Of a stretch of 28,310 bases of DNA, positions 4,848 to 27,153 are shown piece after piece. This DNA is from a virus. Location: the IMG/VR virus record IMGVR_UViG_3300027777_001370, positions 1 to 28,310 of that record. One strand, given 5' to 3'. The notes under the pieces are model-generated. The model was given only the letters and a program-made list of their open reading frames with translations, did no database searches and had not been told where the DNA came from. The position numbers and the translations under genes were made by a program. Each line of letters opens with the position of its first letter. Within the stretch, counting starts at the first letter, position 1.

Positions 4848-5177
4848 CTATTTTTTCTTTTCTTCGATACTTTGAGCATATAAACTACGCTTATACTGTC
4901 TAACCTTATCTTTTAATATTGATAATACCTTTTGTGAATTGGATAAGTTTGACGAAATCATTGAAACTCTTGATTTTGTGATCATTTGTAACCCTCCAGG
5001 TATTGAGTCCTCTAATTTTCTTAATTCTTTAACAGTTTCATTAAGTGAATTTTGTAGTTCTTCTATCTTGAACTGTACTCTACTAAACTCGTTGCGAGAA
5101 ACCTTAGAAGTTTGTTCCATTAGAACTTTATCTAATATATCTTTTACCTGATTTTCGGTAATAATTTGTTTTTCCAT
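4848..5177 (-). CDS. Class A leader protein with coiled-coil body
   Basis: The 109-residue protein starts MEKQIITENQVKDILDKVLM and reaches a candidate prohead-protease site L19-M20-E21. The remaining body has heptad-like helices (residues 30-65), a short Pro-Gly-Gly turn and a second long basic helix ending in EEKKK. I recognise no enzyme motif. It begins 1 base after the stop of the ribbon-helix-helix gene, so it is the second gene of an operon whose upstream box lies at 5440-5447. Role as a packaged or head-associated protein is inference from the leader. Confidence 0.7.
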   Translation of the reverse strand: MEKQIITENQVKDILDKVLMEQTSKVSRNEFSRVQFKIEELQNSLNETVKELRKLEDSIPGGLQMITKSRVSMISSNLSNSQKVLSILKDKVRQYKRSLYAQSIEEKKK

Positions 5178-5178
5178 A

Positions 5179-5424
5179 TTAAACTGTAAAATCTTTATCT
5201 TCTTTGTTACTTAACTCACCATCTCTTCTCATTCCCTCTTTGATATACGTTCTAATCAATTTAGATACGGTTTTATCTTGATGATTGGCAACCTTTTCAA
5301 TTTCTTTGTAATATGCGGGTACAACTCTGAATGTCAACATCTTAATAAGTTGTTTATGTTTAGGTTGTTGTGTTTTTGCGGTTTCACCTGATGCCTGCAT
5401 TTCTTGATATTTCTTAGATGCCAT
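5179..5424 (-). CDS. Ribbon-helix-helix DNA-binding protein
   Basis: This 81-residue protein contains LTFRVVPAYYKEIEKVANHQ (residues 30-49), then DKTVSKLIRTYIKEGMRR. A beta strand followed by two helices, with the pattern T-V-S-x-L-I-R-x-Y-I, is the ribbon-helix-helix (MetJ/Arc-type) fold that binds operators as a dimer. The first 25 residues are polar and probably flexible. It is the first gene of a two-gene minus-strand operon with the class A leader protein, and may regulate its own or other phage genes. I considered an antitoxin role, but the partner does not look like a known toxin. Confidence 0.75.
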   Translation of the reverse strand: MASKKYQEMQASGETAKTQQPKHKQLIKMLTFRVVPAYYKEIEKVANHQDKTVSKLIRTYIKEGMRRDGELSNKEDKDFTV

Positions 5425-5439
5425 TTGGATATATTTTTA

Positions 5440-5447
5440 TATAAATA
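5440..5447 (-). promoter_or_regulatory. TATTTATA box upstream of the RHH operon
   Basis: The gene strand reads TATTTATA 15 bases before the ATG at 5424. The operon it heads includes a class A leader gene. Confidence 0.45.
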
Positions 5448-5495
5448 TTTGGTTTTACCCTTATTTTTCATTATATTATAATAAATAGATAAAAT

Positions 5496-5855
5496 ATGTC
5501 AGAAGATAAACCACAAGTAAATTCGGTCATCAAAGAAATTGAGGAGAAATACCCTGAAATGACCAAAGAATTCAAAAGAATAATGAGGGAACAATATGAA
5601 ACGTTCTGTAGGAAACAATCCAATTACGGTCCTGATAATATCGCATTAGGTAAGGATTTAAGTAAGGAGGAAGACCGTAAATTGTCTCAAATGGGTCTTT
5701 GGTTCAGAATGAACGATAAGATACAAAGAATCAAACAACTCGTCGTTTTGGGTCGTCAGGATAACGTAGGAGAGGTCGTGGACGACACCTACCAAGACCT
5801 ATCGGTATATTCCATCATTGCTCAATTAGTCAAAAATGAAAAATGGGGAAAATAA
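5496..5855 (+). CDS. Nmad1/DUF1599-like protein
   Basis: The protein is 119 residues, all helical by appearance. It contains YETFCRKQSNYGPDNIALG (residues 30-48), GLWFRMNDKIQRIKQLVV (67-84), and GEVVDDTYQDLSVYSIIA (93-110). These match my memory of the Nmad1 family (formerly DUF1599), a small domain common in phages and linked to nucleotide modification. The paired acidic residues in the third helix resemble the metal-binding helix of all-alpha NTP pyrophosphatases such as MazG. It probably acts on nucleotides in the cytoplasm. It is a single gene followed by its own terminator. Confidence 0.7.
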   Translation: MSEDKPQVNSVIKEIEEKYPEMTKEFKRIMREQYETFCRKQSNYGPDNIALGKDLSKEEDRKLSQMGLWFRMNDKIQRIKQLVVLGRQDNVGEVVDDTYQDLSVYSIIAQLVKNEKWGK

Positions 5856-5878
5856 CCCAAAACAAAAAACAATCAAAT

Positions 5879-5918
5879 AAGGGGTTAAGAAATAAAAAAC
5901 TTACCCCCTTTTCTATTT
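5879..5918 (+). terminator. Intrinsic terminator after the Nmad1-like gene
   Basis: AAGGGGTTAAG pairs with CTTACCCCCTT across a 10-base A-rich loop, with one T-C mismatch in the stem. A T-rich tail (TTCTATTTTA) follows. It lies 23 bases after the stop codon. Confidence 0.75.
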
Positions 5919-5935
5919 TATAACACCTGTAAGAG

Positions 5936-5943
5936 TATTTATT
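5936..5943 (+). promoter_or_regulatory. TATTTATT box before ATG 5962
   Basis: This one-base variant of the TATTTATA box lies 18 bases before the start codon, between a terminator and the gene. Confidence 0.35.
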
Positions 5944-5961
5944 TAAAACGACAAAGAAGCC

Positions 5962-6925: not shown

Positions 6926-7557
6926 TATTTGAATTTAAAATGTGTTAATTTTGTTATATCTGAAACTGTAACTTTATGTGATTCTAAACCAGACGGTTTA
7001 TCAGGAGTATTATCAAATTCATAAGCAAGATATTCTTTTGTTTTTACAATATAAACCACCTTCCAACATTTGGTAGGAACAGATACTGTACCTATTTTCT
7101 TTGCGACACCTACACTACCACACCAAATATGAACGGAATCTTTATCCATTGCAATTTGTCTTTCTAACGTTTCTAATGTTTTCCAATCTCCAGCATTTAA
7201 AGAATGATATTGTGGTGTCATATTTGAAAAATAAAAACATTCATCTTGAACATCTTGTGTTTGACATTGATTCTCGGCCGCAGGCATATTATGACCCCTA
7301 TCAGTCCCTGAACCCTTGTAATCCTCAATTAAATCAGTTTCATTTGGTAATGATGGGTCAGGTTTAAAATTATCTTTTCTGGCCAATGGTGTGGGACAAC
7401 CAACTTTTACCTTAGTAATCCACCACTCCACCATTACAGGATATTTTTTTGATTTTGAATAATGTGACGTGTAATTTGTATGTTTTAAAACCACCACATC
7501 TTGTGCCTGTAATGTTAATGTAAATAATAACCCAATAACCACTAAAAATTTTTTCAT
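6925..7557 (-). CDS. Secreted DNA/RNA non-specific endonuclease
   Basis: The 210-residue protein starts with a Sec signal peptide (MKKFLVVIGLLFTLTLQAQ), with the Bacteroidetes-style QAQ end. The catalytic DRGH is at residues 86-89, followed by NMPAAEN, then SNMTPQYHSLNAGDW, which supplies the metal-binding Asn and matches the NUC1/Serratia-nuclease beta-beta-alpha-metal family. Four or more Cys residues suggest disulfides after export. It should degrade DNA and RNA in the periplasm or outside the cell. It overlaps the upstream kinase-like gene by 4 bases. A secreted nuclease in a phage could salvage nucleotides or damage competing phage DNA, which is inference. Confidence 0.85.
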   Translation of the reverse strand: MKKFLVVIGLLFTLTLQAQDVVVLKHTNYTSHYSKSKKYPVMVEWWITKVKVGCPTPLARKDNFKPDPSLPNETDLIEDYKGSGTDRGHNMPAAENQCQTQDVQDECFYFSNMTPQYHSLNAGDWKTLETLERQIAMDKDSVHIWCGSVGVAKKIGTVSVPTKCWKVVYIVKTKEYLAYEFDNTPDKPSGLESHKVTVSDITKLTHFKFK

Positions 7558-8105
7558 AAATTGTTTTCTATTAAATAGTTGTAAATCTCCAATGCAGTAT
7601 TATTATTAACAATAAATTCGCTATAAGGTATGTTGTTAACATCCAATGTTTCCTTAATGTCGTTATCAATTTCGATAGCTTCCTGTAAGTCCTGTAATCT
7701 ACCATTTGTATCATATGTTTCATCGTTTCTTTTTAATAAAATGTTTATGTTGTCATATTGTTTGAATAAATTCCAAAGAAATTTACCTAAACCCGACATT
7801 GAGTAGTGTGATGCCGGATAACCCTCACCATATCGTTGTTCGTAAAAACAACCCAATACTATAGGTGAATCAACAATGATATAGTCAACCTTACCATAAA
7901 GACGACTGATGTTTCTATGTTGATTTGCGGTTATAAAAAACTGATCCTTCAATTGAGATACATTTCCTTCCCAAGCCACTTCTTTTGGGAACTCATATGT
8001 ATATTCAACACTCATGTGATGTTTTTTCATCTCGGTAAATAAACCTGACGCTTGTGTGGATTTACCTATACCAGGACCACCAAAAAAGTTAATTATCTTA
8101 CTCAT
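7554..8105 (-). CDS. P-loop nucleotide kinase-like ATPase
   Basis: The 183-residue protein has a Walker A motif GGPGIGKST at residues 9-17 and a hydrophobic strand with Asp (YIIVDSPIVLG, near 75-85) like Walker B. The length and layout resemble deoxynucleoside monophosphate kinases and related phage AAA/P-loop proteins. A YEQRYGEGYP segment may form part of a lid. It is the first gene of a three-gene operon with the secreted nuclease, which would fit nucleotide recycling. An alternative is a generic ATP-binding phage protein with another substrate. Confidence 0.7.
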   Translation of the reverse strand: MSKIINFFGGPGIGKSTQASGLFTEMKKHHMSVEYTYEFPKEVAWEGNVSQLKDQFFITANQHRNISRLYGKVDYIIVDSPIVLGCFYEQRYGEGYPASHYSMSGLGKFLWNLFKQYDNINILLKRNDETYDTNGRLQDLQEAIEIDNDIKETLDVNNIPYSEFIVNNNTALEIYNYLIENNL

Positions 8106-8142
8106 ACTTTATATAATATACAAAAAATAAATGGAATAAAAA

Positions 8143-8164
8143 ACCCTCACATTTCTGTGAGGGT
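8143..8164 (-). terminator. Intrinsic terminator after the outer-membrane protein gene
   Basis: On the minus strand ACCCTCACA pairs perfectly with TGTGAGGGT across a GAAA tetraloop, followed by a T-rich tract. It lies just downstream of the stop at 8192. Confidence 0.85.
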
Positions 8165-8191
8165 CCCTTTGAGTATATAATTGACTGAGAA

Positions 8192-8917: not shown

Positions 8918-8928
8918 GAATTATTACT

Positions 8929-9555
8929 ATGGAACAACACACAATGGAATTAATTGGTATGATTTTAGTTGCTGTCATTACAGCATTAGTCGGTCCAGCA
9001 GGACTTGAATATGTAAAAGTTAAACTATCTAAACCAACATCAAAAGACATCGTTAGAGATGATATTGAAAGAAACTTGGTTATTTTTGACGAAATATCAG
9101 AAATTAGAGATATGTTAGATGCGGATAGGATTTGGATAACCCAATTCCACAACGGTGGTCATTTTCTTCACACCAACAAATCTATTCAAAAATTCTCAAT
9201 TACATATGAAGATACTAAACCTGGAATTGGTAGTGTTATTCATTTATTCACAGATATTCCACTATCATTATATTCAAGGGCGATGAACCACATTATGGAA
9301 AATAAATATTTGTGGGTTTCAGATTTTAAAGATGAAACCATTGCAACTTATGGACTAAAGTCGGCTGCCGAAGCAACCGGAACCAACGCAACATATGCAG
9401 TTGGGTTGTTTGATATTGCAACAGACAGATGTATTGGAACTATGGGTGTTGATTATAGAGATAAAAAGAAATTAACACAAACACAAAAAGATTTTTTAAT
9501 AGAGAGAGGTAGTCGTTTGGCTGGATATTTATCAATATACCTTAAATCAAAGTAA
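8929..9555 (+). CDS. Membrane-anchored GAF-like protein
   Basis: From the chosen ATG the protein has 208 residues. Residues 5-25 (MELIGMILVAVITALVGPAG) look like one N-terminal transmembrane segment. The remainder resembles a GAF-type domain: WITQFHNGGHFL, SITYEDTKPG, LWVSDFKD, a Gly-Thr-Asn-Ala-Thr-Tyr-Ala-Val strand and IGTMGVDYRD. It probably sits in the inner membrane with a cytoplasmic sensor domain, ligand unknown. An upstream ATG at 8872 would add a hydrophobic aromatic stretch, but the TATTTATA box at 8910 argues against it. It heads an operon with a class A leader protein 6 bases downstream. Confidence 0.65.
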   Translation: MEQHTMELIGMILVAVITALVGPAGLEYVKVKLSKPTSKDIVRDDIERNLVIFDEISEIRDMLDADRIWITQFHNGGHFLHTNKSIQKFSITYEDTKPGIGSVIHLFTDIPLSLYSRAMNHIMENKYLWVSDFKDETIATYGLKSAAEATGTNATYAVGLFDIATDRCIGTMGVDYRDKKKLTQTQKDFLIERGSRLAGYLSIYLKSK

Positions 9556-9561: not shown

Positions 9562-9903
9562 ATGAAAAAATATATATTCACAGAAAGCCAAATTAAGAAG
9601 ATTATTGACAATCAAATTGTAGAAAATAAAGATTTACAGGAACAAACAATGGTTAACGATGAAACTGCGGCAATCAATGCGGGAACTAAAGCCTTTTTAG
9701 ACATTAAAAAGGTACAGGGAGTTAATTTAACCGATAGAATTAAGAAATACCAACAATCAATAGGTTGTGAACCAACGGGTCATATGATGGACTGTAAAGA
9801 CAAATTACCACAGAAAGATAAAGAAATGTGGCAAAATTACATATACAAGAATCAATCAATTTTTGATAAAGCTATTAGATGGTTTAACCATTTCTTTGGT
9901 TAA
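9562..9903 (+). CDS. Class A leader protein with a peptidoglycan-binding-like body
   Basis: This 113-residue protein starts MKKYIFTESQIKKIIDNQIV, with candidate cleavage at I19-V20-E21 or L25-Q26-E27. The body includes LTDRIKKYQQSIGCEPTGHM, whose helix-then-xGxxPTG pattern resembles half of a PG_binding_1 repeat, and ends with an aromatic helix (AIRWFNHFFG). Two Cys could form a disulfide. It is the second gene of an operon led by the GAF-like gene, with a strong terminator after it. I infer a packaged protein that may touch the cell wall during DNA entry; the domain match is weak. Confidence 0.65.
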   Translation: MKKYIFTESQIKKIIDNQIVENKDLQEQTMVNDETAAINAGTKAFLDIKKVQGVNLTDRIKKYQQSIGCEPTGHMMDCKDKLPQKDKEMWQNYIYKNQSIFDKAIRWFNHFFG

Positions 9904-10377: not shown

Positions 10378-10385
10378 TATTTATG
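10378..10385 (+). promoter_or_regulatory. TATTTATG box, 4 bases before ATG 10390
   Basis: A one-base variant of the TATTTATA box lies 4 bases before the start of a class B leader gene, the same spacing as at many minus-strand leader genes. Confidence 0.5.
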
Positions 10386-10389: not shown

Positions 10390-12090
10390 ATGAATATTAC
10401 CGATTTAGTGTACGACGTACTAGTTGAGGAAGTAAAAAATAAGAAACAATTTGCTTTCCTATTGAAAAAATGGTATGGTGAATCCCCAAATTTAGATCAA
10501 ATAAAAGAAGCTGAGAAAAATTTAGAGTTCTTTTTTGAGAAACAAAAAGGATTAACAATGAATAATCCAGGTGTTCTTTCATTCTTACATCGTTGGAATG
10601 GTGTTCATGGTTTAGGTGTTAAAGTACAGAGTTTGGATGATAATGGACAACCCATAACTAAATTAGTACCATTTAAATTTGAAGACATTAATGACCCTGG
10701 TCGTTATACTTTAGAACAATTTGAGGATTTACTTGATGAATTTAGAGACAGAACATTAAATGGTAATCAAGAAGATGAAGATGAATTTAAAGGTAAATTA
10801 AATGCCACCCCTGGAAAAATTGCAGCATCAAAGAAATATTGGTTAGGTGATAGAGATATGGTAATTGGTGAGGAAGGTTTTAAAGTACATTATGTCCCCG
10901 ATGCTAGAGAAGCCATTAAATACGGATTTTACCAAGAATTAGTTACTGAAAAATTAGGTGGTCAACAATGGTGTGTAACGGGTAGAAACACACCAGAATC
11001 ACGTGGTAACATGTGGGGAACTTATAGACCTAAAAGAACATTTTGGTTTGTAATTGATGAGTCTAAAAATCCTGAGGAGAACAAAGACCCAAATGTTTAC
11101 AAATATTATTTATGTGCGTTACAATATTGTGAAAATGATAGAAACCCATATAAAAATAATGAACTATACACTGGTTTTAAAATGACCAGTATGTTGAATG
11201 ATGGAGATAATCCAAAAACATGGGAAGAAGTTGTTAGGATATATCCTCAATTAGCAGAACATAGAGATTCATTTACATATCAAACTTATGACGAATCTGA
11301 GTTGTTTGATAGAGATATAATTGGTCGTATCAATGAAATACCTGGAAATAGATTGGAATTTGCATTACTTAGAAGAGATTTAAAGAAAGCTTATATTGAT
11401 AGAGCAGGTGTCATTTCAAGTGCAAAATCTTGGAGACATATGACAACAGATTTGAGAAATTTATATATAATCTCAACAACACCAAGTAACGTTATTGATA
11501 AATTTCAGTCATATGAATTAATGAGTGAAATTAGAAAAGTTGGTAATGAATTTAAATTATTAGATAATACTTTAAGGTCAATAGGTTCAAGAGTTGACGA
11601 ACATACGGGTAGAATTATTAATCAAAAATTGTCAGATGTTGGAGTTGGATTTATCTACGAACATTTAATGTCAAATGAGTTTATAGTTGCTAGAGTAAGT
11701 ATAGATAATAAAAATTTAGTTTTATATGAAAGTAAAAAAACAAAGAAATTTGGTTTATATTATAATGATAAAGCATCGTGGGTTAAACAAGACGGTATAG
11801 TTTTTGAACCTAATTATGTTCAAATGGGTACCGACTTATATAAAGATAATGAAGGTAAAACTTACATTGTTGAGACATATACAACTGGAGGTGATCCAGA
11901 TAATTCAAGTTTATATTGTGTCTTTCCAATTGAGGAAAGTGATGATGCGAGTGGTCATTTTGTCACAGCACAAAAATTTGAGTTATTAAAAACTAAAATA
12001 CAACCTAATGATGAAAATGATGATGATGGTAGTGTAAAAATTAGTGATTTTGATCCTGAAACGGATGTGGATATTAAAGAAATGAATTAA
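10390..12090 (+). CDS. Class B leader protein with Trp-Cys motif domain
   Basis: This 566-residue protein starts MNITDLVYDVLVEE, with candidate cleavage at L11-V12-E13. Around residues 160-245 it has a region with Trp194-Cys195-Val-Thr-Gly, a WGTYRPKRTFWFVIDE strand pair, and an aligned LCALQYC strand. The same layout (TEWCTT, then GPLFIMINK) occurs in the class B protein at 13330-15180, so the two appear to be distant paralogues. I have seen this Trp-Cys pattern in phage hypothetical proteins but cannot name its function. The C-terminal part is acidic, with many Asp. It has its own box 4 bases before the ATG and a bidirectional terminator after it. Confidence 0.7.
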   Translation: MNITDLVYDVLVEEVKNKKQFAFLLKKWYGESPNLDQIKEAEKNLEFFFEKQKGLTMNNPGVLSFLHRWNGVHGLGVKVQSLDDNGQPITKLVPFKFEDINDPGRYTLEQFEDLLDEFRDRTLNGNQEDEDEFKGKLNATPGKIAASKKYWLGDRDMVIGEEGFKVHYVPDAREAIKYGFYQELVTEKLGGQQWCVTGRNTPESRGNMWGTYRPKRTFWFVIDESKNPEENKDPNVYKYYLCALQYCENDRNPYKNNELYTGFKMTSMLNDGDNPKTWEEVVRIYPQLAEHRDSFTYQTYDESELFDRDIIGRINEIPGNRLEFALLRRDLKKAYIDRAGVISSAKSWRHMTTDLRNLYIISTTPSNVIDKFQSYELMSEIRKVGNEFKLLDNTLRSIGSRVDEHTGRIINQKLSDVGVGFIYEHLMSNEFIVARVSIDNKNLVLYESKKTKKFGLYYNDKASWVKQDGIVFEPNYVQMGTDLYKDNEGKTYIVETYTTGGDPDNSSLYCVFPIEESDDASGHFVTAQKFELLKTKIQPNDENDDDGSVKISDFDPETDVDIKEMN

Positions 12091-12092
12091 AT

Positions 12093-12120
12093 AAAAAAGG
12101 GACATTAAGTCCCTTTTTTT
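12093..12120. terminator. Bidirectional terminator between convergent genes
   Basis: AAAAAAGGGAC pairs with GTCCCTTTTTT around a five-base ATTAA loop, with a T run on both strands. It serves the plus-strand gene ending at 12090 and overlaps the stop of the minus-strand endolysin gene. Confidence 0.85.
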
Positions 12121-12970
12121 ATGATAATAATTTATAATATTCATTAAAATGTTTTATTCTATCATCAATTCCTATGTACCCGCCATTTACTCGTTTTGTT
12201 ATAGCTTTAACAGTATCAACACCAGCCCCACCATCCGCCATTTTATGTAATCCGTTCTTATTAAAGAACCAAGCGGCAGATAATAGAGCATAAGACGAAG
12301 CAACCTTTTCAGGGTTTACAGACATATCTTCATTAATAGATTTACCAAATGCTGTGTAGTTGTCTTTACCCGTTAATTGAATGTAACCACGACCACAGAA
12401 TTTAGAACCGTCTCCTGAGGCCTCAGGACCATTACCCATTCTACCACCATAAACTCTATTTGCAATTTTTTGAGGTTGTCTTTCATATGGTTTAGCATCT
12501 GCCTCCGTTTTAAAATATTTGTTAAATGTTCCTACTAATCCTTTAGCGGAATAGTTTAAGTTTTCTTTTGTCAATCTAAATCCACCACTTTCATGTCCAC
12601 ATTGAGCTAAGAAATGAGCTAAACGTAATGGAGTGTTAATTTCAAATTTAGCGGCGGTATCAGGAATTTGAGCAATAACCGCATCAGGTATATGTCCTCT
12701 TAATCCTTCTAATTTTAACCCACCAACACTCTTAACGGGTGCAGGTTCGGTAATAACCGTAGGAACACTAACTGGTGCGGATTCCGATAATCCCATAATT
12801 ACACTCCAAGTTTTATCTCCAACAATACCATCAGCACCTAAACCATGTTCAGATTGCCACGCTTTTACTGCAGCCTCAGTTTTAGGTCCAAATTTACCTA
12901 TAGGGTCTACTCCTAATTTAATTTGTAATTTTTTCACATCTTCTCCTTCTGATCCTAATTTTAATAACAT
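12119..12970 (-). CDS. Endolysin: peptidoglycan-binding domain plus GH19 chitinase-like lysozyme
   Basis: The 283-residue protein opens with a PG_binding_1 repeat (residues 1-60: LKLGSEGEDVKKLQIKLGVD and DGIVGDKTW). A Pro- and Val-rich linker follows. The C-terminal domain (about 90-283) has AHFLAQCGHESGGF with the catalytic Glu, ENLNYSAKGL, IANRVYGGRMGNG, and GRGYIQLTGKDNYTAFG, all typical of GH19 endolysins. It should cleave peptidoglycan glycan strands during lysis. There is no signal peptide and no leader, so release would need a holin, not seen here. A TATTTATT box lies 14 bases upstream of the ATG, which fits late expression. Confidence 0.92.
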   Translation of the reverse strand: MLLKLGSEGEDVKKLQIKLGVDPIGKFGPKTEAAVKAWQSEHGLGADGIVGDKTWSVIMGLSESAPVSVPTVITEPAPVKSVGGLKLEGLRGHIPDAVIAQIPDTAAKFEINTPLRLAHFLAQCGHESGGFRLTKENLNYSAKGLVGTFNKYFKTEADAKPYERQPQKIANRVYGGRMGNGPEASGDGSKFCGRGYIQLTGKDNYTAFGKSINEDMSVNPEKVASSYALLSAAWFFNKNGLHKMADGGAGVDTVKAITKRVNGGYIGIDDRIKHFNEYYKLLS

Positions 12971-15185: not shown

Positions 15186-15193
15186 TATAAATA
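15186..15193 (-). promoter_or_regulatory. TATTTATA box, 5 bases before ATG 15180
   Basis: An exact TATTTATA on the gene strand, in the extended form GATATTTATAT, lies 5 bases before the start of a class B leader gene. Confidence 0.55.
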
Positions 15194-15438: not shown

Positions 15439-15446
15439 TATAAATA
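15439..15446 (-). promoter_or_regulatory. TATTTATA box before the 54-residue gene
   Basis: An exact TATTTATA on the gene strand lies 13 bases before the ATG at 15425. Confidence 0.5.
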
Positions 15447-19484: not shown

Positions 19485-20369
19485 TTATATGGATATTGTT
19501 TTTGGTTCTTTCTCTTTGTGGAATTTTTTAACGTATTTCTTAAAGTCAGTCAATCCTCCTCTTTGTTCAACCCATTCTATTGGATCGATATCTCTAAATC
19601 CAAATTTACCTTCATTATCTGCAAGATAAACTGTGCCACTTGAAATTGAATTTAGTTTCATACCAACTTCCTCAAGTACTTTTATTATACTTGGTTCCTT
19701 AGTTTCCCATTTTTCAATAAATTCAATGATTGATTCTTTCCATAAAATATCAACAACTCGAATGTTATTTACCACAGTTTCATTCCAAAAACTATCTCTA
19801 CCATTTCTAAGTGTTTTAATATCTGTAAAATGTTCACGTATTTCCTTTGCATGTTGTTTAACTAATCCATCAACCCATCTATAGTAGTTAATTAAATCTT
19901 TTGGTTCGTTAATATTATTAAAATCATTGTGTTCTGAAAATTCTTTTACAATTTTATCAATAATGTTCTTTGGTAAAATATGAAGTGTAATCCATCTTCT
20001 TCCTGATTCGTCAGGTCCACTCATTACATCTGCCGGAGCGTCAAATTGTAAATCCCCTTCTATTTGATATAGTATTCCACCTTCAGTTTGTATGCCTTTA
20101 ATATCCTTTAACATATTTTTTTCCATATATCTAAAAGTGGATAATGCCTTTCTTGTACCGACCATCTCACCCATCTTATCAATACCATTAACGTCTCCAA
20201 TATGAAATGTTGTGACTCTTTGTTTACCCCATATATAATTTACAATTGATGGAGTTAAAGGTATATCTAACTTATCAATATGGGATTGCACATTAGACAA
20301 CCACTTCAGTTCATTTAACTGTTGTTGTTCAATAAGTTTTAATTGTGATTCTGTAACCTGAAGCTTCAT
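19485..20369 (-). CDS. Class A leader protein with GTRKALSTFR domain of unknown function
   Basis: The 294-residue protein starts MKLQVTESQLKLIEQQQLNE, with a candidate site L18-N19-E20. The body has IVNYIWGKQRVTTFHIGD, then GTRKALSTFRYMEKNM (near residues 71-86), then GGILYQIEGDLQF, DAPADVMSGPDESGRRWITLH, and helices to the end. The GTRKALSTFR and SGPDESGRRW blocks look conserved-motif-like, but I cannot name the family; an ADP-ribosyltransferase-like or nuclease activity is possible. It has an exact TATTTATA box 4 bases before its ATG, which overlaps the end of the next gene upstream. Confidence 0.75.
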   Translation of the reverse strand: MKLQVTESQLKLIEQQQLNELKWLSNVQSHIDKLDIPLTPSIVNYIWGKQRVTTFHIGDVNGIDKMGEMVGTRKALSTFRYMEKNMLKDIKGIQTEGGILYQIEGDLQFDAPADVMSGPDESGRRWITLHILPKNIIDKIVKEFSEHNDFNNINEPKDLINYYRWVDGLVKQHAKEIREHFTDIKTLRNGRDSFWNETVVNNIRVVDILWKESIIEFIEKWETKEPSIIKVLEEVGMKLNSISSGTVYLADNEGKFGFRDIDPIEWVEQRGGLTDFKKYVKKFHKEKEPKTISI

Positions 20370-20384
20370 TAGATATAAATATTA
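20365..20384. repeat. 20-base repeat copy 1 over a start codon and box
   Basis: TTCATTAGATATAAATATTA is identical to the sequence at 20902-20921. Each copy spans the ATG region and the TATTTATA box of a class A leader gene. Confidence 0.8.
20374..20381 (-). promoter_or_regulatory. TATTTATA box, 4 bases before ATG 20369
   Basis: An exact TATTTATA on the gene strand lies 4 bases before a class A leader start. Confidence 0.6.
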
Positions 20385-20906
20385 AAAATTAATATAAACC
20401 CAAGCATTCTGTTTATATCTACCATATTTCTTAAGTGATGCTGTCGTTCTATGCCACCCTTCAACCAAATCGTATTTACCATCTTTTGTTAAATAAACAA
20501 TAATAGGTTCAGAAGAGATTCCATTTGTATCAAGTTTGGATTGTTGTGTATTATGTCTTTCAGAATCGTTAGGTACTTGTTGATTAATACTGCCACCGAT
20601 TTTACTTTTTAAACCTTGTTGATCCCCATCAATAAAAATGTCTATTGATACATCCAATACTCTAAATTCCCAATATCCTTTACCAAATCTTTGAATCCAA
20701 TTATCAAAATATGTCTGACCAAGTTTTTTATATACGTTATTATCAACACTCATTTCCTTTGTGTTTTTATACATCCAATCCCTAATGACATACTCGGGCC
20801 AATTTACTCCAGTATATTCCTTACCCTTCCTAACCAAATAGTTCAATAACCCATGACGAGTTTCGGTGATAAGTTTATATTGTGATTCTGTAATTAGGAT
20901 ATTCAT
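20382..20906 (-). CDS. Class A leader protein with ParB-like EGWHR motif
   Basis: The 174-residue protein begins MNILITESQYKLITETRHGL with a candidate site I13-T14-E15. Later features are WPEYVIRDWMYKN, DSERHN, EPIIVYLTKDGKYDLVEGWH and RTTASLKKYG. The final part resembles the ParB/Srx nuclease-like fold, in which a DG(x)HR-type loop ends a strand pair. The class B protein at 25237-25731 has the same body order, so they appear to be homologues with different leaders. It has an exact box 4 bases upstream. Function could be nuclease or CTPase-like binding. Confidence 0.72.
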   Translation of the reverse strand: MNILITESQYKLITETRHGLLNYLVRKGKEYTGVNWPEYVIRDWMYKNTKEMSVDNNVYKKLGQTYFDNWIQRFGKGYWEFRVLDVSIDIFIDGDQQGLKSKIGGSINQQVPNDSERHNTQQSKLDTNGISSEPIIVYLTKDGKYDLVEGWHRTTASLKKYGRYKQNAWVYINF

Positions 20907-20921
20907 TAGATATAAATATTA
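20902..20921. repeat. 20-base repeat copy 2 over a start codon and box
   Basis: This is identical to 20365-20384 and holds the same box and start-codon arrangement, for the ParB-like leader gene. Confidence 0.8.
20911..20918 (-). promoter_or_regulatory. TATTTATA box, 4 bases before ATG 20906
   Basis: An exact TATTTATA on the gene strand, with the same 4-base spacing as the preceding gene, lies in the second copy of the 20-base repeat. Confidence 0.6.
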
Positions 20922-21595: not shown

Positions 21596-22117
21596 TTATT
21601 TAATTCCTGAAAGATATTCATCTATTTTTTTTTGAATTTCAGGATTATTTCCTGTATAAATGATATTTGTAAGATATTGTCTCAATGGATATATTCTATC
21701 CGTTAATACTCTTTCCTCTACTTCAGGGTTTTTACGACTACGTGGTATTTCGTCCATCCAAGCTTTATTTGCAATTGTTCCATAATCAAAAGGAACCACC
21801 CTATAACGTGATTTAAGACGACTTCTATCTGCAACAAAGATTACGTTCAACATATCGGGTTTAATACGAGGACCGTCACCAGAATTACCAATAGACCCAT
21901 CAGGTATAAAGTTCTTATCACGAGTAAATGAAACCATCGTTTTATGTTTGGATTGTTTTAATGTTCTATCTAAATTTAAAACCTCCTCGTATTGTTTTGA
22001 CCCTACCAACATATTACCATTCATGATGTCTAAAGCACGTTCTTCAGTTGTATGGTGATAGATTGGAATTGACACCATATCTCTTAACTTCTCCAATATA
22101 ACGTCCTGTAGTTTCAT
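21596..22117 (-). CDS. Class B leader protein, ADP-ribosyltransferase-like
   Basis: The 173-residue protein starts MKLQDVILEKL, with the class B site I7-L8-E9. The body has IYHHTTEERALDIMNG (His21, His22), MVSFTRDKNF (61-70), NVIFVADRSRLKSRYRVVPF, and EVEERVLTD (132-140). An N-terminal His, a Ser-Phe-Thr strand and an ExE-type segment follow the order of ADP-ribosyltransferase folds, including DarT-like and Alt-like proteins. I infer NAD-dependent modification of a host target, possibly after injection. It has an exact TATTTATA box 4 bases upstream and pirin follows on the transcript. The fold call is moderate. Confidence 0.62.
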   Translation of the reverse strand: MKLQDVILEKLRDMVSIPIYHHTTEERALDIMNGNMLVGSKQYEEVLNLDRTLKQSKHKTMVSFTRDKNFIPDGSIGNSGDGPRIKPDMLNVIFVADRSRLKSRYRVVPFDYGTIANKAWMDEIPRSRKNPEVEERVLTDRIYPLRQYLTNIIYTGNNPEIQKKIDEYLSGIK

Positions 22118-22121: not shown

Positions 22122-22129
22122 TATAAATA
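22122..22129 (-). promoter_or_regulatory. TATTTATA box, 4 bases before ATG 22117
   Basis: An exact TATTTATA on the gene strand lies 4 bases before the start of the ADP-ribosyltransferase-like class B gene. Confidence 0.6.
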
Positions 22130-22220: not shown

Positions 22221-22499
22221 TTATTTAATTTTATCTACCGAAGTTGTGAACTTGTGACACTTATCTGTTACTTTACCCGCATCGTGGTCTGTAATAACCA
22301 ATTTGACATTATCATAATGAACCGTCATATCAGGGTGGTGATTTTGTTTATCCGCAATCTTCATAACTTCATTTACAAAAGGTATAACACTTTTATAGTT
22401 TTTGAAGTAGAATGTTTTAATAAGTTTATTATTAATTTCCTCCCAATTACTTTTATTCATAAGCCTATTATGTTGTCTTTCAGTTATTAAAATCGTCAT
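22221..22499 (-). CDS. Class A leader fused to pterin-4a-carbinolamine dehydratase
   Basis: The 92-residue protein starts MTILITERQHNRLM, with class A features but no clear [L/I]xE site downstream of the leader motif (only I5-T6-E7 inside it). The rest is a full pterin-4a-carbinolamine dehydratase: NWEEINNKLIKTFYFKNY, FVNEVMKIADKQNHHPDM (His54, His55), and VKLVITDHDAGKVTDKC (His72). It dehydrates 4a-hydroxytetrahydropterin in pterin recycling, and homologues have a second role in dimerisation. The box lies 2 bases before the ATG and a terminator follows. Catalytic residues look intact. Confidence 0.85.
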   Translation of the reverse strand: MTILITERQHNRLMNKSNWEEINNKLIKTFYFKNYKSVIPFVNEVMKIADKQNHHPDMTVHYDNVKLVITDHDAGKVTDKCHKFTTSVDKIK

Positions 22500-22501: not shown

Positions 22502-22509
22502 TATAAATA
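22502..22509 (-). promoter_or_regulatory. TATTTATA box, 2 bases before ATG 22499
   Basis: An exact TATTTATA on the gene strand lies only 2 bases before the ATG of the pterin dehydratase. There is no room for a usual 5' untranslated region. Confidence 0.6.
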
Positions 22510-22650: not shown

Positions 22651-22658
22651 TAATAAAA

Positions 22659-22681: not shown

Positions 22682-22691
22682 ATTATGTTAA

Positions 22692-23345
22692 TTACGAATT
22701 GAATTGGTTTTTACCCAATATTTTATTACTTAGTGTCGTATCAGGATTGTTCATATTTTGCATATCCTTCATACTAATTGTTGATTCAGGAGTTCTACTC
22801 GCTGTGATTCCCATTATCTTATCAAATATTTGTTGAGTAACCCCTGTTTGTCTAACGTACTCAGGTGCCACTTTCTTAACCGCAGCATCTGTTAAAGTAT
22901 AAAATTGTCCTGTTGGTTTAACTCCAAGAGATGCTTGAATCATTTTAATATTATTACCTGATTGACCAAATTTAAGTGGTACTACTTCATTAGGTACAAA
23001 TTTCATTTTTTGAGTAACGACTTGAGGTGTCATGTTAAAATATTTAACAGCCTTAGGATTTGAATCAAACATTAAGTTTACAATGCTAGCCTGTGCTCCA
23101 CATTCATAACTTCCTTTATTTCCTTTAACGTCAGCAAATCTACCATTATTATAGAACACAAATGTTTCACCATTTTTTCCGGTGATTTGTTTCTTTTGTT
23201 CCATGGATTTCAACACACATCCTATGTTCAAACTTTTTTGTGGTGTAATTTGATTAGGGTTACCCATTGGTGCCGATTGTTCTTTAATGACTTTAGAAAC
23301 AATATTTCTTAATTGTTCTTCTGTTAATTTGATTATTCTTTTCAT
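22692..23345 (-). CDS. Class A leader protein with peptidoglycan-binding-like domain
   Basis: The 217-residue protein starts MKRIIKLTEEQLRNIVSKVI and has a candidate site I20-K21-E22. The middle (residues 40-105) contains GCVLKSMEQKKQITGKNGET and strands around FVFYNNGRFADVKGNKGSY, with two Cys. Residues 124-175 have VPLKFGQSGNNIKMIQASLG and VKPTGQFYTLTDAAVKK, which resemble a PG_binding_1 repeat. The tail is Asn- and Ser-rich. The box lies 6 bases upstream and a terminator follows. A packaged wall-contacting role is inference; the domain resemblance is moderate. Confidence 0.75.
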   Translation of the reverse strand: MKRIIKLTEEQLRNIVSKVIKEQSAPMGNPNQITPQKSLNIGCVLKSMEQKKQITGKNGETFVFYNNGRFADVKGNKGSYECGAQASIVNLMFDSNPKAVKYFNMTPQVVTQKMKFVPNEVVPLKFGQSGNNIKMIQASLGVKPTGQFYTLTDAAVKKVAPEYVRQTGVTQQIFDKIMGITASRTPESTISMKDMQNMNNPDTTLSNKILGKNQFNS

Positions 23346-23351
23346 ATGATA

Positions 23352-23359
23352 TATAAATA
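23352..23359 (-). promoter_or_regulatory. TATTTATA box, 6 bases before ATG 23345
   Basis: An exact TATTTATA in the extended form GATATTTATAT lies 6 bases before a class A leader start. Confidence 0.6.
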
Positions 23360-23378
23360 TCTGTGTTTATTATAAATA

Positions 23379-25118
23379 TTAAATATCATTTAATGTATTC
23401 ATTAATGATAATTTGGGTCCAGTTCTATTTGGTTTTTGAATTCTTTGACTTAAATCAACTCGATCTTTATGTACCGCTTCTTTAGGTAATTGTCTTTCTG
23501 GATAATCACCCAAACGTTTTATTTCCCTTGCTTCAACACTTTTTAATGCATCTAATAATAATTTATCATATGTACCCTTTTTCAAAGTATACGGTACACG
23601 AATCAATCCCAAACCAAGATTATTAGTTTCAATAAATTGGTTTTTTAAATTATCACTTTCATATAGTATATTATAATTTAATTGTCTGGTGTATTCTGAT
23701 TTAGCAAACCTAGGTTCAAAATGTTGTTCACCATCATATTCAATAAGGATATTAACATACCCTGGTTCAGGTATATAAAAATCAAACTTTTGATTACCTA
23801 ATTCTTTGAATTGTTTTTCTGTTTCAAATTCGTAATCTTCTTCAGATAATAAATTTTTAATGTGAATTTGATTTTTTGATTCTTGACATATTGGGCAACC
23901 TTGTCCTGCAGAATGGTTAGAGGGAGTTTGTAGAAATATTCCATGCTCTCTACCGTTAGAACCTATTTTGTGACATTCAATGTGAATATCATCGGTCATT
24001 CTTTTAAATTCACTATCAAGATTTGGATAAGAATATGGTTTTTCATTTTCATCTTTAAATCTTTCTTTATTTAAATTATAAGTTGTATTTTTAAATTTAT
24101 TTAGTTGGTTAACTCTTTTACATTCTTTACATTCAATTGATCCATATTTGTTTGTAGATCCCCAAATTGTTGAGGGTTGTTTATATACTACCGGAAAAGG
24201 TGTTTTTCCGTGTAACGTACAACCAAGGGTAACGGGTGAATTTCCTCCAATATAATCCGATAATAAAACAAATCTATCATTGTAGAGTTTACGGACTTTA
24301 TCCATAAATTCTTTTTCTTTAACCGCTATTCTATTACATTCGGGACACAAAGGTGTACCAGTATAAAAAGTTTGAGCTTTTTCCCTTGAAATTTCTTGAT
24401 TATGTTTTACACATTTTATTTTACCATTTTTTAATGGGGTTTCATATTCCATATTTTTCCAATCATACCAACTTATTGGGATATGGTATAATTTCATCTT
24501 TTCTTTGACTTTTTTAATGAATTCACTACGAGAAAGATTACTCAATGATTGTCTAACTATTCCTTGTTCTTCTCTACATTTTTCACAACCAACATATGGG
24601 TAGTTATCATATCTATAGTCTCGATATATATGACTTGCTGGATTTGTAATAGTTTGTTTACCGTGAGGTTTTTTATTTGAACCAAGTTTAGGACAATAAA
24701 AATCAAATCCATTATTAATACCTGTATATCTTCTTAAACCCGATTTATTGTAGATATATAAAGGATTTCCATTTTCATCTTTCCATATTTCCTCAGCCTT
24801 ATTATAAAAATTATTTACTTCTGAATTTCTTTTATTTAAAATCCTATCTTTTTTACATCCAACACATCCTTCTGAACCAATACCACCTTTAGTAAGGTAT
24901 TCAACTTTTACAGGAAAATCAATATTATGTTTATTACAATGAGCATTTACTGTTGCTCTTTTTCTAAAATCTTCCAAATTAGGAAAGTCATAAAGACAAC
25001 CTCCTTTATAAGGAAAAAGTCCTTTCATACTGTTTAAAAAACCTTCCTTTGTTACCACATTATAACCCTCACCCAATGATGAGTTCTCGTCTTCCAATAT
25101 AATATCTAATAATTTCAT
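23379..25118 (-). CDS. Class B leader protein: zinc-ribbon repeats plus Vsr/PD-(D/E)xK-like nuclease
   Basis: I chose the ATG at 25118 because the protein then begins MKLLDIILEDENSSLG (class B, site I7-L8-E9) and a TATTTATA box lies 7 bases upstream; an ATG at 25178 would run through that box. The 579-residue protein has about five Cys/His zinc-ribbon repeats (for example CNKHNIDF to CVGCK, CVKHNQEI to CPEC, CTLHGKTPF to CKEC, and GQGCPICQ). The C-terminus has FDFYIPEPGYVNILIEYDGE followed by QHFEPRF, the layout of Vsr-like and phage homing-type nucleases. It probably cuts DNA. A packaged nuclease is an inference from the leader. Confidence 0.78.
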   Translation of the reverse strand: MKLLDIILEDENSSLGEGYNVVTKEGFLNSMKGLFPYKGGCLYDFPNLEDFRKRATVNAHCNKHNIDFPVKVEYLTKGGIGSEGCVGCKKDRILNKRNSEVNNFYNKAEEIWKDENGNPLYIYNKSGLRRYTGINNGFDFYCPKLGSNKKPHGKQTITNPASHIYRDYRYDNYPYVGCEKCREEQGIVRQSLSNLSRSEFIKKVKEKMKLYHIPISWYDWKNMEYETPLKNGKIKCVKHNQEISREKAQTFYTGTPLCPECNRIAVKEKEFMDKVRKLYNDRFVLLSDYIGGNSPVTLGCTLHGKTPFPVVYKQPSTIWGSTNKYGSIECKECKRVNQLNKFKNTTYNLNKERFKDENEKPYSYPNLDSEFKRMTDDIHIECHKIGSNGREHGIFLQTPSNHSAGQGCPICQESKNQIHIKNLLSEEDYEFETEKQFKELGNQKFDFYIPEPGYVNILIEYDGEQHFEPRFAKSEYTRQLNYNILYESDNLKNQFIETNNLGLGLIRVPYTLKKGTYDKLLLDALKSVEAREIKRLGDYPERQLPKEAVHKDRVDLSQRIQKPNRTGPKLSLMNTLNDI

Positions 25119-25125
25119 ATACACA

Positions 25126-25133
25126 TATAAATA
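25126..25133 (-). promoter_or_regulatory. TATTTATA box, 7 bases before ATG 25118
   Basis: An exact TATTTATA (GATATTTATAT) lies 7 bases before the chosen start of the zinc-ribbon nuclease and decides that start. Confidence 0.6.
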
Positions 25134-25236
25134 TCTCCCATTTATTAACGGACACAAAAAGAGAGAGACAAATTTCAACGGGGGTTCCGGCGTGTGAAAA
25201 CAAAAAACCGTGAACGGGGTTATCGGAGGTTAGAAA

Positions 25237-25731
25237 TTAACGAATACCCACATAGACAGGATAATCAAATCCATCAGGGTTCATAATAAATAACTGAATC
25301 AATCGGTGCCAACCCTCCCACATTTCCAATTTACCCTTTTCAGAACGGTTCATAGCCATAATCAATGGTTTCTTGCTACCAGACTTAAGGAGTTCCAATT
25401 GTTTCTCATGACGTTCCTTATCACCATCAAATAGGGTTGCACCCTTAATACGAGGTCCAATGTTGTGTCGTGACTCAGAATCCAACTTATCCATGGTAAT
25501 ATGAAGGTTAGGGAAGAATTTCCATTTCATCTTCTTAAGGTCTTGAAAGTATTGGTAATTAGGGTGGGTGGGGTTCATCATCTCAGGATTAAATCTGGCG
25601 GTGGTATAATAAAGGTCATTAAAGACCCATTCTGGCACATCTGGAAGTTCCTTTCTCAATTCCCTATATAATCCACCACGTAGTTCGTGGAGGTCTAAAA
25701 CGGTCTCATATAGGGTATCGGTCAGGTTCAT
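25237..25731 (-). CDS. Class B leader protein with ParB-like EGWHR motif
   Basis: The ATG at 25731 gives 164 residues starting MNLTDTLYETVLDLHELRGG, class B with a candidate site L7-Y8-E9; an ATG at 25755 would run through the box. The body has VPEWVFNDLYYTTARFNPEM, DSESRHNIGPR, KKPLIMAMNRSEKGKLEM and WEGWHRLIQLF. This is the same order as the class A protein at 20382-20906 (WPEYVIRD, DSERHN, then the strand and EGWHR). The EGWHR loop resembles ParB/Srx-fold proteins. The TATTTATT box lies 3 bases upstream. Confidence 0.72.
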   Translation of the reverse strand: MNLTDTLYETVLDLHELRGGLYRELRKELPDVPEWVFNDLYYTTARFNPEMMNPTHPNYQYFQDLKKMKWKFFPNLHITMDKLDSESRHNIGPRIKGATLFDGDKERHEKQLELLKSGSKKPLIMAMNRSEKGKLEMWEGWHRLIQLFIMNPDGFDYPVYVGIR

Positions 25732-25734
25732 ATT

Positions 25735-25742
25735 AATAAATA
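25735..25742 (-). promoter_or_regulatory. TATTTATT box, 3 bases before ATG 25731
   Basis: This one-base variant of the box (GATATTTATT) lies 3 bases before the chosen start of the class B ParB-like gene. Confidence 0.5.
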
Positions 25743-25827
25743 TCTTGTATACCAAGAGTTCCTCGGGTGGTATCTTAATAATTTATATAAGAACGATTAG
25801 TTTTCCGTTGTATAATCTTGGATTTCC

Positions 25828-26031
25828 TTATAGTTTCTGTAGATTATGGATGATGTTATTGATTAACTTTAGTTTGTGTCCTGATCCTTGTCCCAAATAG
25901 ATGAACTCTTTTTGCATAATCAACCAATCAATTTGTTCGGGAATACCGTACTCGTCACCGTCAAAGTAACGAACAGGTTTCTCTTCGTTGATAACTGTCT
26001 TTAGTTGAGATTCTGTAAGGATGATTTTCAT
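25828..26031 (-). CDS. Class A leader small protein
   Basis: The 67-residue protein starts MKIILTESQLKTVINEEKPV, a near-ideal class A leader with the site I14-N15-E16. The remaining 51 residues include RYFDGDEYGIPEQIDWLIMQ and a helix ending in IIHNLQKL. I recognise no domain. An exact TATTTATA box lies 4 bases upstream. The short body may be a cargo peptide or an accessory subunit. Confidence 0.72.
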   Translation of the reverse strand: MKIILTESQLKTVINEEKPVRYFDGDEYGIPEQIDWLIMQKEFIYLGQGSGHKLKLINNIIHNLQKL

Positions 26032-26035
26032 ATGA

Positions 26036-26043
26036 TATAAATA
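26036..26043 (-). promoter_or_regulatory. TATTTATA box, 4 bases before ATG 26031
   Basis: An exact TATTTATA on the gene strand lies 4 bases before a class A leader start. Confidence 0.6.
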
Positions 26044-26136
26044 CCTATAATTGGAAATATGTTTCTAATATAGAGTTATTGTCCTCCAAAACCCCCCAAA
26101 TGCATAGGGATATTGTAGGAATTGGAAATATAGTTC

Positions 26137-26679
26137 TCATTTTAGTTTATTATAATAACTTAATATTATAGGAATGTATTTCTTCTTTTTTGTATTTTTA
26201 GCAACTTCTTTAAAAAAGAACCCATCCCCATTGTAGTTATTAATATCCCATCTTACGGAACCGATTATATTTCTATGTACGATGAGATTACCTGTGTCAA
26301 CTACTCCAGGTTCAATGAACCCACCAAATAGTCTAAGGGTTTCATTTTTAAAACATTGATTGAATATGATGATGTCACTAGTAAATGAATTAACTCTGTC
26401 CCATAGTTCAGGATGCATAATAGTATCATCATCCAAAAAATAAACATAATCATCCGTGATTATCTCCAATGCAATATTTCGTTGAGAATTTCCCGCTTTA
26501 CTTCTATCGTCCCTATGAGAGATGTATGTAATATTAGGATGTACGGGTAGTTCTTTAGGGATGTAGTCCAAATCAAAAACAACATACCAATGATAATTCT
26601 CCAATGGAATACATATGGAGTCAAAGATGGTTTGAAAGTTTTTGGGTCTTGAACAAGGGGTTACTATATTGATGAACAT
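26137..26679 (-). CDS. Short GT2-like glycosyltransferase
   Basis: The 180-residue protein begins INIVTPCSRPKNF, a GT-A-type N-terminal strand and loop, and has NSQRNIALEIITDDYVYFLDDDTIMHPELW, quoted in parts: NSQRNIALEII and YVYFLDDDTIMHP. The DDD is the metal- and nucleotide-binding motif of family 2 and related transferases. It is shorter than most GT2 enzymes, ending soon after a GDGFFFKEV motif, which may be an acceptor-side element. A TATTTATA box lies 9 bases upstream, unlike the other glycan genes here, so it may be expressed late with the packaged set. Confidence 0.72.
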   Translation of the reverse strand: MFINIVTPCSRPKNFQTIFDSICIPLENYHWYVVFDLDYIPKELPVHPNITYISHRDDRSKAGNSQRNIALEIITDDYVYFLDDDTIMHPELWDRVNSFTSDIIIFNQCFKNETLRLFGGFIEPGVVDTGNLIVHRNIIGSVRWDINNYNGDGFFFKEVAKNTKKKKYIPIILSYYNKLK

Positions 26680-26688
26680 AGTTTAAAA

Positions 26689-26696
26689 TATAAATA
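26689..26696 (-). promoter_or_regulatory. TATTTATA box before ATG 26679
   Basis: An exact TATTTATA on the gene strand lies 9 bases before the start of the GT2-like gene. Confidence 0.5.
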
Positions 26697-26709
26697 AAAT
26701 TACCCAAAT

Positions 26710-26733
26710 AAAAAACCCTCTGTGTTGGAGGGT
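26710..26733 (-). terminator. Intrinsic terminator after the class A gene at 26740
   Basis: ACCCTC pairs with GAGGGT across a 7-base loop, followed by TTTTTATTTGGG on the minus strand. Confidence 0.8.
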
Positions 26734-26739
26734 CATATG

Positions 26740-27153
26740 TTAGTGTTTAATGGACGCATTTAATTTTGCAACGTCGTCATCGGACATGAATTTGGTCTCG
26801 GGGTTTGAAGTATTTGGATTGGATGTCATACCTGATATATATTCATGAGTTCTTGATTTAAAATCTGTAACCATTTGTTGTAATGGTACCGTTTTAGAAC
26901 CTTTATCAATTGGGTCAAAAACGATTGCGTCCTTACTATTGTTCATGATTTTAACCGTATATCCTTTATTACCGTCATTACCTGAATAAAACTTACCAAT
27001 TACATTACCTGTACCATCTTTTAATACTTGTGATGGGTTTAAACCCAATTTTGATATTGGAACACCCATAATAGTGTCATCTGTAGGTTGTTGTTCATAT
27101 AACCCACGTATTTGATTTCTTTCTGATTCTGTGATTGTAAATTTCTTTCCCAT
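26740..27153 (-). CDS. Class A leader protein
   Basis: The ATG at 27153 gives 137 residues starting MGKKFTITESERNQIRGLYE, with a candidate site L18-Y19-E20; an ATG at 27166-27168 would run through the box. The body has strands (GNVIGKFYSGNDGNKGYTVK, then DAIVFDPIDKGSKTVPLQQM) and a helical, Asn-rich tail. I recognise no family. The leader itself is the strongest evidence that the gene is real, with an exact TATTTATA box 4 bases upstream and a terminator downstream. Confidence 0.75.
   Translation of the reverse strand: MGKKFTITESERNQIRGLYEQQPTDDTIMGVPISKLGLNPSQVLKDGTGNVIGKFYSGNDGNKGYTVKIMNNSKDAIVFDPIDKGSKTVPLQQMVTDFKSRTHEYISGMTSNPNTSNPETKFMSDDDVAKLNASIKH

Follow-up and report, generated by a model that had tools for sequence, protein, structure and literature searches.

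The closest described counterparts of the proteins considered here are the internal proteins of bacteriophage T4. In the portions of the sources available to us, the T4 internal proteins and Alt are described as carrying a short propeptide that ends in a gp21-type L/I-x-E site and loads injected proteins (PMC9026906, PMC12373910); Ip1-3 are described there as sharing only the N-terminal leader that directs packaging, other ip genes having been found by that signal (PMC12373910). IPIII bearing Asp at residue 10 is reported to be targeted though uncleaved (PMC9026906). In the T4 record itself, ipII and ipIII start MKTYQEFIAEA, and alt starts MELITELFDE. For the giant phages phiKZ, 201phi2-1 and SPN3US, the available portion of one source reports that a protease related to gp21 cleaves many head proteins after Glu (PMC9026906). 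The present analysis concerns a 28,310-base virus record (IMG/VR record IMGVR_UViG_3300027777_001370; 'the window' refers to this whole stretch), in which an initial annotation had noticed 15 proteins between positions 4848 and 27153 that begin with one of two leaders, either TESQL-like (class A) or of the form MKLxDxIxE (class B). We consider it likely that these leaders are capsid-targeting propeptides of the T4 kind, belonging to new sequence families and attached to more cargo.

The window leaders resemble those of T4 IPI, IPII, IPIII and Alt, as far as the partial sources describe these, in being short N-terminal segments on mostly unrelated proteins that end in L/I-x-E; class B (MKLLDIILED) is similar in shape to T4 MKTYQEFIAE, the two being compared by eye only. 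They differ from the T4 capsid-targeting sequences in their own sequence (TESQL, MKLxDII), in a wider range of cargo that includes large and enzyme-like proteins, and in the heptamer TATTTAT that precedes most tagged genes; the window set is also known from its genes alone. Likeness to the phiKZ-like giants, drawn by description only and from a partial source, would consist in the putative Glu cut sites and a gp21-related protease, while relatives of the window differ by a head module in T4 order and by short shared leaders ending in L/I-x-E. A third comparison is with the cultured Flavobacterium phage immuto, which grows on Flavobacterium sp. LMO8, and its relatives in IMG/VR (M..LSEEFxRMQKLAGIIxE), in which varied proteins likewise start with a tag and then [LI]xE; the tag there copies the C-terminal tail of the scaffold, whereas no such source was found for the window classes.

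Shared N-terminal leaders

All 15 N-termini were present as initially described, each with an ATG start, and the [LI]xE triplet that had been said to end the leader within residues 9-27 was found in 14 of the 15 proteins. The same test applied to non-leader open reading frames (ORFs) of the window and two relatives, G002 (97 kb) and G021 (335,630 bp), was positive for 115 of 546 (21%); these relatives, and G022 (105 kb), were found through the cargo proteins. Similarity was also measured without reference to any motif, by ungapped BLOSUM62 comparison of the first 24 residues, with internal 24-mers of the same proteins as the control. This gave 14 pairs at a score of 30 or more in the window, against 2.0 in the control, and one cluster of seven proteins; the five class B proteins did not form a cluster in this test from the window alone. 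In G002 there were 116 pairs against 10.0, a total that includes ordinary signal peptides and a group starting MKPFKFF as well as both leaders, and in G021, at a score of 35, 115 pairs against 22.8, other N-terminal groups being counted there too. Clusters with the start MKLLDIIxE contained five bodies in G002, and six and three bodies in G021, with three unrelated N-termini pulled in. Leader residues were encoded by differing synonymous codons (e.g., AGC and TCA for Ser), and therefore conservation acts at the protein level. The leaders are not a chance likeness; they are real N-terminal families.

Across the window and its near relatives (G001-G004, G021 and G022) there were 46 distinct starts of class B form (M[KN][hydrophobic]x[DEN]); Glu occupied position 9 in 31 of these, 27 of which also had L, I or V at position 7, and was missing from that position in the other 15. 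Among 95 distinct bodies with loose TExxL starts, [LI]xE occurred within 16 residues past the core in 50, where 25.6 were expected from shuffled sequences, and its offsets from the core peaked at 3 and 8. Short-query tblastn of the leaders in named phages returned 1 and 2 records, at E values of 5 to 7, and otherwise no match. The initial description of two leader modules was right in so far as classes A and B are both present, and too simple in that relatives also carry MNLQExIxRIKxMM, TEEEKNRILNLHE and RMQKLAGI.

Cut-site pattern

A long form of the class A leader, KLTESDLxRIVKKVLxEQ, was sought in IMG/VR as a DNA pattern; 107 stretches were returned, and 82 matches were found in the 80 loci that were read. 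Seventy-five of these had an open frame of at least 44 residues from the ATG of the pattern, six met a stop after 15 residues and one was out of frame; by hand estimate, about three matches would be expected by chance. One tagged family, recognised by the motif YMFFSNL, had readable N-termini in 69 of 80 loci (58 distinct, one truncated). Its leaders vary, some lacking TESDL, and an [IT][IV]xKVLxE-like end is kept. For alignment, 44 of the 80 loci were taken and one was dropped for a stop in its translation (n = 43). The P1 residue, Glu21, was the sole invariant residue before Tyr27; P3 was always L, I, V or M (L 34, I 4, V 3, M 2), while P2 accommodated nine kinds of residue (entropy = 2.45 bits). 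Between two conserved domains of the same family lay a further, equally strict site, [MILV]-x-E|G, with an invariant Gly, P3 again M, I, L or V in 43 of 43, and a P2 entropy of 2.95 bits. In an AlphaFold2 model (mean predicted local distance difference test, pLDDT, of 77), the leader is predicted to form a helix from residue 8 to 21 that ends at the first Glu, and the one stretch with a predicted pLDDT below 50 (residues 89-103) holds the second; a Foldseek search with this model gave no match at E 0.001.

Sites of this form also occurred at head-protein junctions. In six large phages the major capsid protein (MCP) read ...QASxLINE|[AS] after a conserved pro-region (6/6), which is the [LI]xE form. 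A head-module protein adjacent to TerL in six phages had differing leaders (RINE, KIKE, KLSE, TMKE and, twice, NLNE) and a conserved mature start directly after the Glu. When a profile of the short class A leader was compared with internal segments, the MCP junction ranked 13 of 88,669 in G021, and from 6 of 27,193 to 43 of 75,904 in the other five phages; 12 column-permuted profiles ranked it from 52 to 49,127 in G021, and an earlier profile that included more of the relatives' leaders ranked it 3 and 12. The likeness of class A leaders to the MCP junction is taken as a hint only. As a separate observation, T4 gp22 holds LTESQKEKVSALVEG, a tempting candidate parallel to class A.

Protease and head module in relatives

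Presence of a gp21-like protease had been named as a check on the proposal. No S77 (gp21-family) match occurred in the window, itself only a 28-kb fragment, nor in the shorter G023 and G024 or in G001-G004; the protease was found in the near relatives G021 (E = 5e-21) and G022 (E = 6e-23). G021 is related to the window by eight blocks of 74-92% DNA identity, seven of them inside its 42-70 kb region. Its gene order, TerL, portal, S77 protease, acidic scaffold and gp23-like MCP, is T4-like, and the corresponding proteins of immuto were matched throughout (TerL, E = 1e-60; portal, 6e-82; S77, 3e-36; scaffold, 4e-10; MCP, 9e-61). G022 has the same head module, its scaffold being recognised by position and by likeness to the scaffold of G021. 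When the records carrying the long TESDL leader were ordered by size, 11 of the largest 16 encoded S77, including all four above 250 kb.

Late-promoter-like element

The heptamer TATTTAT occurred within 40 bp upstream of 13 of the 15 window leader genes (a pterin dehydratase gene, discussed below, among the 13), compared with 5 of 25 other genes; its reverse was upstream of none of the 15. The nearest copy ended 3-8 bp before the ATG in 11 of 15 cases and at 14 and 29 bp in two, with two genes lacking any. Leader genes were likewise favoured over other genes in G021 (13/20 vs 64/389), G002 (11/19 vs 17/126), G006 (13/23 vs 76/327), G008 (8/19 vs 67/365), G001 (10/11 vs 4/10) and G003 (8/10 vs 7/21). 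In the four large relatives G005-G008, where late and early genes were chosen through homologues in immuto and PA5oct, the element was within 60 bp upstream of 26/41 late orthologues, compared with 2/29 early ones (19/41 and 2/29 within 40 bp). The core of TATAAATA, the T4 late promoter, reads TATTTAT in reverse complement; TATAAATA is present before T4 alt and gene 22. Because of this correspondence and the association with late orthologues, TATTTAT was read as a putative late promoter of the tagged genes. It was absent from the immuto leader genes (0/4).

These results bear on the possibility that the leaders act inside the infected cell as tags for recruitment or regulation, directing proteins to, e.g., a replication or host-takeover complex. 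Such a function would suit the identifiable cargo, which is enzyme- or nuclease-like and not evidently structural, and packaging in this phage is itself deduced indirectly; however, TATTTAT is tied to late rather than early genes, and the same kind of start is found on head-module proteins. Intracellular tagging is accordingly judged quite improbable.

Leaders and elements within the window

Class A leaders on the forward strand were confined to that of 9562-9903, at 9562-9624 (MKKYIFTESQIKKIIDNQIVE|N), where TATTTAT lies 29 bp before the ATG. On the reverse strand they were identified at 5115-5177 (MEKQIITENQVKDILDKVLME|Q; gene 4848-5177), with no TATTTAT within 60 bp, and at 15375-15425 (MTKKLKITESQLKMLVE|N; gene 15261-15425), 20310-20369 (MKLQVTESQLKLIEQQQLNE|L; gene 19485-20369), 20862-20906 (MNILITESQYKLITE|T; gene 20382-20906, its body giving a weak ParB-like match), 23280-23345 (MKRIIKLTEEQLRNIVSKVIKE|Q; gene 22692-23345) and 25984-26031 (MKIILTESQLKTVINE|E; gene 25828-26031). 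The leader of 26740-27153, at 27094-27153 on the same strand (MGKKFTITESERNQIRGLYE|Q), is class A-like, with TEEEKNRILNLHE in relatives. A weak class A member lies at 12995-13333 on the reverse strand (MRILISEGQLENLKK); its zinc-ribbon-like C-terminus matched below the cut-off for that domain, and it has the core ISEGQL and a helix end without a site.

The class B leader of 10390-12090 (566 aa) was at 10390-10428 on the forward strand (MNITDLVYDVLVE|E), with TATTTAT 5 bp before the ATG. The remainder were on the reverse strand: 15154-15180 (MKILDVLME|E; gene 13330-15180, 616 aa), 22091-22117 (MKLQDVILE|K; gene 21596-22117), 25092-25118 (MKLLDIILE|D; gene 23379-25118, with an HNH/homing-endonuclease-like body) and 25705-25731 (MNLTDTLYE|T; gene 25237-25731).

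Coordinates of TATTTAT were derived from the measured gaps to start codons. On the reverse strand, the copy at 20375-20381 is 5 bp before the ATG of 19485-20369, and others are at 15187-15193, 15440-15446, 20912-20918, 22123-22129, 22503-22509, 23353-23359, 25127-25133, 25736-25742, 26037-26043 and 27159-27165; those on the forward strand are at 9526-9532 and 10378-10384. The element is also upstream of 12119-12970, which encodes a lysin with a peptidoglycan-binding domain and a GH19 chitinase-like domain.

Cargo bodies and leader exchange

The one protein without the triplet, a pterin dehydratase (22221-22499, reverse strand), did not survive as a member of the set: its supposed leader lies inside its Pfam domain (PF01329, residues 6-89 of 92, E = 7.8e-19), so that the TERQ start is native to the fold. 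The accompanying claim that the proteins are otherwise unrelated was true of most of them. When bodies were compared after residue 28, that of 20382-20906 matched that of 25237-25731 (E = 7e-6, 28% over 87 aa), and 9562-9903 weakly matched 22692-23345 (E = 4.6e-4, 33% over 46 aa); in this search within the 15 proteins, none of the remaining pairs fell below E 0.3. With the pterin dehydratase dropped, 12995-13333 counted as weak and two pairs related, there are 13 leader genes on 11 distinct bodies. In the first related pair, 20382-20906 has a class A leader and 25237-25731 a class B leader; since two classes thus occur on one cargo family, the leaders are swappable.

The same comparisons address whether the likeness merely reflects native N-terminal helices, bias at start codons or in translation, or gene conversion at the 5' ends of genes. 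A native helix is the true explanation for one member, the pterin dehydratase; TATTTAT lies so close to the ATG that promoter and start could move together; and two body pairs are related. Nevertheless, the excess over internal segments, the varied synonymous codons, the 11 distinct bodies and the boundary between leader and body at the Glu all argue against such origins, which we regard as very improbable.

Two observations concern the nature of that cargo. Class B leaders occurred on nuclease-like proteins (HNH/homing-type, DUF723 and weak GIY-YIG), i.e., 23379-25118 of the window and 4070-5377 and 6935-8149 of locus L296, and nucleases may therefore be among the packed cargo. The protein encoded by 21596-22117 has the look of an ADP-ribosyltransferase (YHHT...SFTR...EERVL), as in T4 Alt, which is a guess only; no family or structure match was obtained for it, and a predicted model of 21599-22117 with a pLDDT of 38 was discarded.

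Separately, a MKPFKFF-like start was common to small proteins that otherwise differ (the cluster in G002 comprises 24 unrelated bodies and that in G021 14), whose genes often overlap in tandem at 76-95 kb of G002 (L011, L012), and at 3-16 kb and two other places in G021. This was left out as a third leader because it has no Glu site and TATTTAT preceded 0 of 14 in G021.

Scaffold-tail leaders in other T4-like phages

In immuto, which is T4-like and has a prohead protease by annotation, the scaffold ends SEVSEQVSRWQKLAGIIK. This tail ranked first of 216 C-terminal tails at matching the phage's own N-termini, these being MKKQILSEQFRRMQKLAGIITE and MKKQILSEQFKRMQFLAGIITE. Genes 25061-25456 and 111675-112139 of immuto encode proteins with the leader end LAGIITE. 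As a DNA pattern, RMQKLAGI was found in at least 120 stretches of IMG/VR, and the 80 loci that were read contained 81 matches. Among the matches listed, 66 ended within 14 residues of the stop codon, 14 were at protein starts and one was unclear. The next ORF after the 66 C-terminal occurrences listed was gp23-precursor-like, as judged by reading its start, in 57 cases (none in seven, another gene in one, doubtful in one), and the Asp plus Glu fraction was about 0.20 or more in 54. Among the protein starts listed, [LI]xE followed within 14 residues of LAG in 14 of 14, and the leader in this T4-like group can therefore be described as a copy of the scaffold tail with an added protease site. The corresponding DNA pattern for the scaffold tail of the giant phages matched 2 stretches.

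RMQKLAGI[IV]K also ended four proteins that are maybe not scaffolds (L329, L331, L386 and L397), with no MCP-like next ORF and two of them near contig ends; for this reason RMQKLAGI may also act as a C-terminal tag. Two further starts were shared in immuto (L191-L194). MENFDLKKFLVENKLTxNSKLLxE opens four proteins unrelated to one another, two of which are encoded immediately ahead of TerL, and MKKSQLRxIIKEAL opens four, one between portal and protease.

Evidence for and against packaging in the head

A further line of evidence came from phage PA5oct. The 616-aa class B protein of the window is similar over ~150 residues (26% identity) to EST35_0205, which starts MKLFEVFTLYED and is annotated as a structural protein by electrospray ionization tandem mass spectrometry (ESI-MS/MS). 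Class B starts on PA5oct proteins with this annotation are MKINDIITE|G, continuing GYYNPADD in 82921-83142, and MKIKDILVE|S, continuing SDEYVDRL in 157529-157843; the gene of the former immediately follows the portal gene, a place taken in T4 by genes 67 and 68. Plain [LI]xE was not enriched among annotated proteins (15/93, compared with 78/377 other ORFs), and the bare triplet consequently has little power alone. The mass spectrometry annotation is regarded as soft evidence that may support packaging.

Initially the tagged proteins had been proposed to be packaged in the head and injected. The TATTTAT element, the P3/P2/P1 pattern, the PA5oct annotation and the copying of scaffold tails elsewhere do point to head targeting; presence in the virion, cleavage and injection are what we infer from them.

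Several observations weigh against packaging. The window is only a fragment, contains no head genes and comes from a phage known from sequence alone. [LI]xE is present in only 50 of the 95 TExxL-like bodies, a loose pattern that also lets in false members, and in the large relatives it is missing from many short proteins that start MKYIITESQ. When a hidden Markov model of the long TESDL leader was run on all N-termini, the best window leader reached only E 0.47; this model gave 0 to 6 hits in shuffled sets and was not used as proof. Association of TATTTAT with leader genes was not significant in G004 (5/7 vs 4/15), G005 (4/14 vs 49/268) or G007 (5/15 vs 64/319), and the promoter parallel to the T4 internal proteins is incomplete, because TATAAATA was not seen within 45 bp upstream of ipI, ipII, ipIII or gene 23. 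Ranking of scaffold tails by their match to N-termini of the same genome was not above chance in G021 (367 of 409), G022 (76 of 127), G006 (282 of 369), G008 (366 of 405), G005 (40 of 303), G007 (260 of 378) or PA5oct (182 of 402). In PA5oct, strict class B starts were found in 2/93 annotated proteins, compared with 1/377 among the remaining ORFs, which were our own calls (p = 0.10); a looser pattern gave 5/93 and 2/377 (p = 0.004), having been picked after the list was seen. The PA5oct list also contains enzymes, e.g., FtsH and ribonucleotide reductase, which makes carry-over possible.

Some of this evidence would equally suit leaders that are assembly tags for the tail, baseplate or neck, or that are never cut and stay on the particle. 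Late-promoter-like elements and the PA5oct annotation are compatible with any virion location, and many short TESQ proteins have no [LI]xE. Against this stand the invariant P1 Glu and free P2, with two sites in the one YMFFSNL family; the match in form between the leader site and the MCP junction, LINE|[AS], of six large relatives; and the scaffold-tail copying in other phages, which points to the head. Assembly tags of this kind are thus considered unlikely, and a propeptide directing cargo into the head is preferred.

Discussion

If the leaders are capsid-targeting propeptides, the tagged genes would be transcribed late, most from their own TATTTAT promoter. The N-terminal helix would dock on the prohead core or inner shell during head assembly, bringing the cargo inside, and the S77 protease would cut at the helix end, behind the [LI]xE Glu, so that the cargo is released within the head; the DNA would then be packaged and the cargo injected later, as for the T4 internal proteins. 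For this phage, we infer docking, cutting, packaging and injection alike. It is also possible, and is offered tentatively, that head-loading leaders of T4-like phages combine contacts which the phage already uses in assembling its head with a site for the protease. In one large group this would be the scaffold C-terminal tail (RMQKLAGII), copied and extended by [LI]xE, and in giant phages other helices (TESQL, MKLxDII) would serve the same purpose. Tags would then be swapped between cargo proteins, and the same sites would cut multidomain cargo in the head.

Capsid-targeting propeptides themselves are already known from T4, as the available portions of the sources cited above describe. A literature search, from which subscription journals were mostly excluded, found no account of scaffold-tail copying or of TESQL leaders. 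Within the literature searched, what is new comprises the leader families and their elements resembling late promoters, together with the second site that divides a cargo of two domains and, in a sister group, the copying of the scaffold tail.

Were this interpretation true, a tag readable from sequence would predict which giant-phage proteins of unassigned function enter the head and are then probably injected. Anti-defence and takeover proteins would be expected in that set, and the copying of a scaffold tail would suggest how a capsid-targeting sequence physically works.

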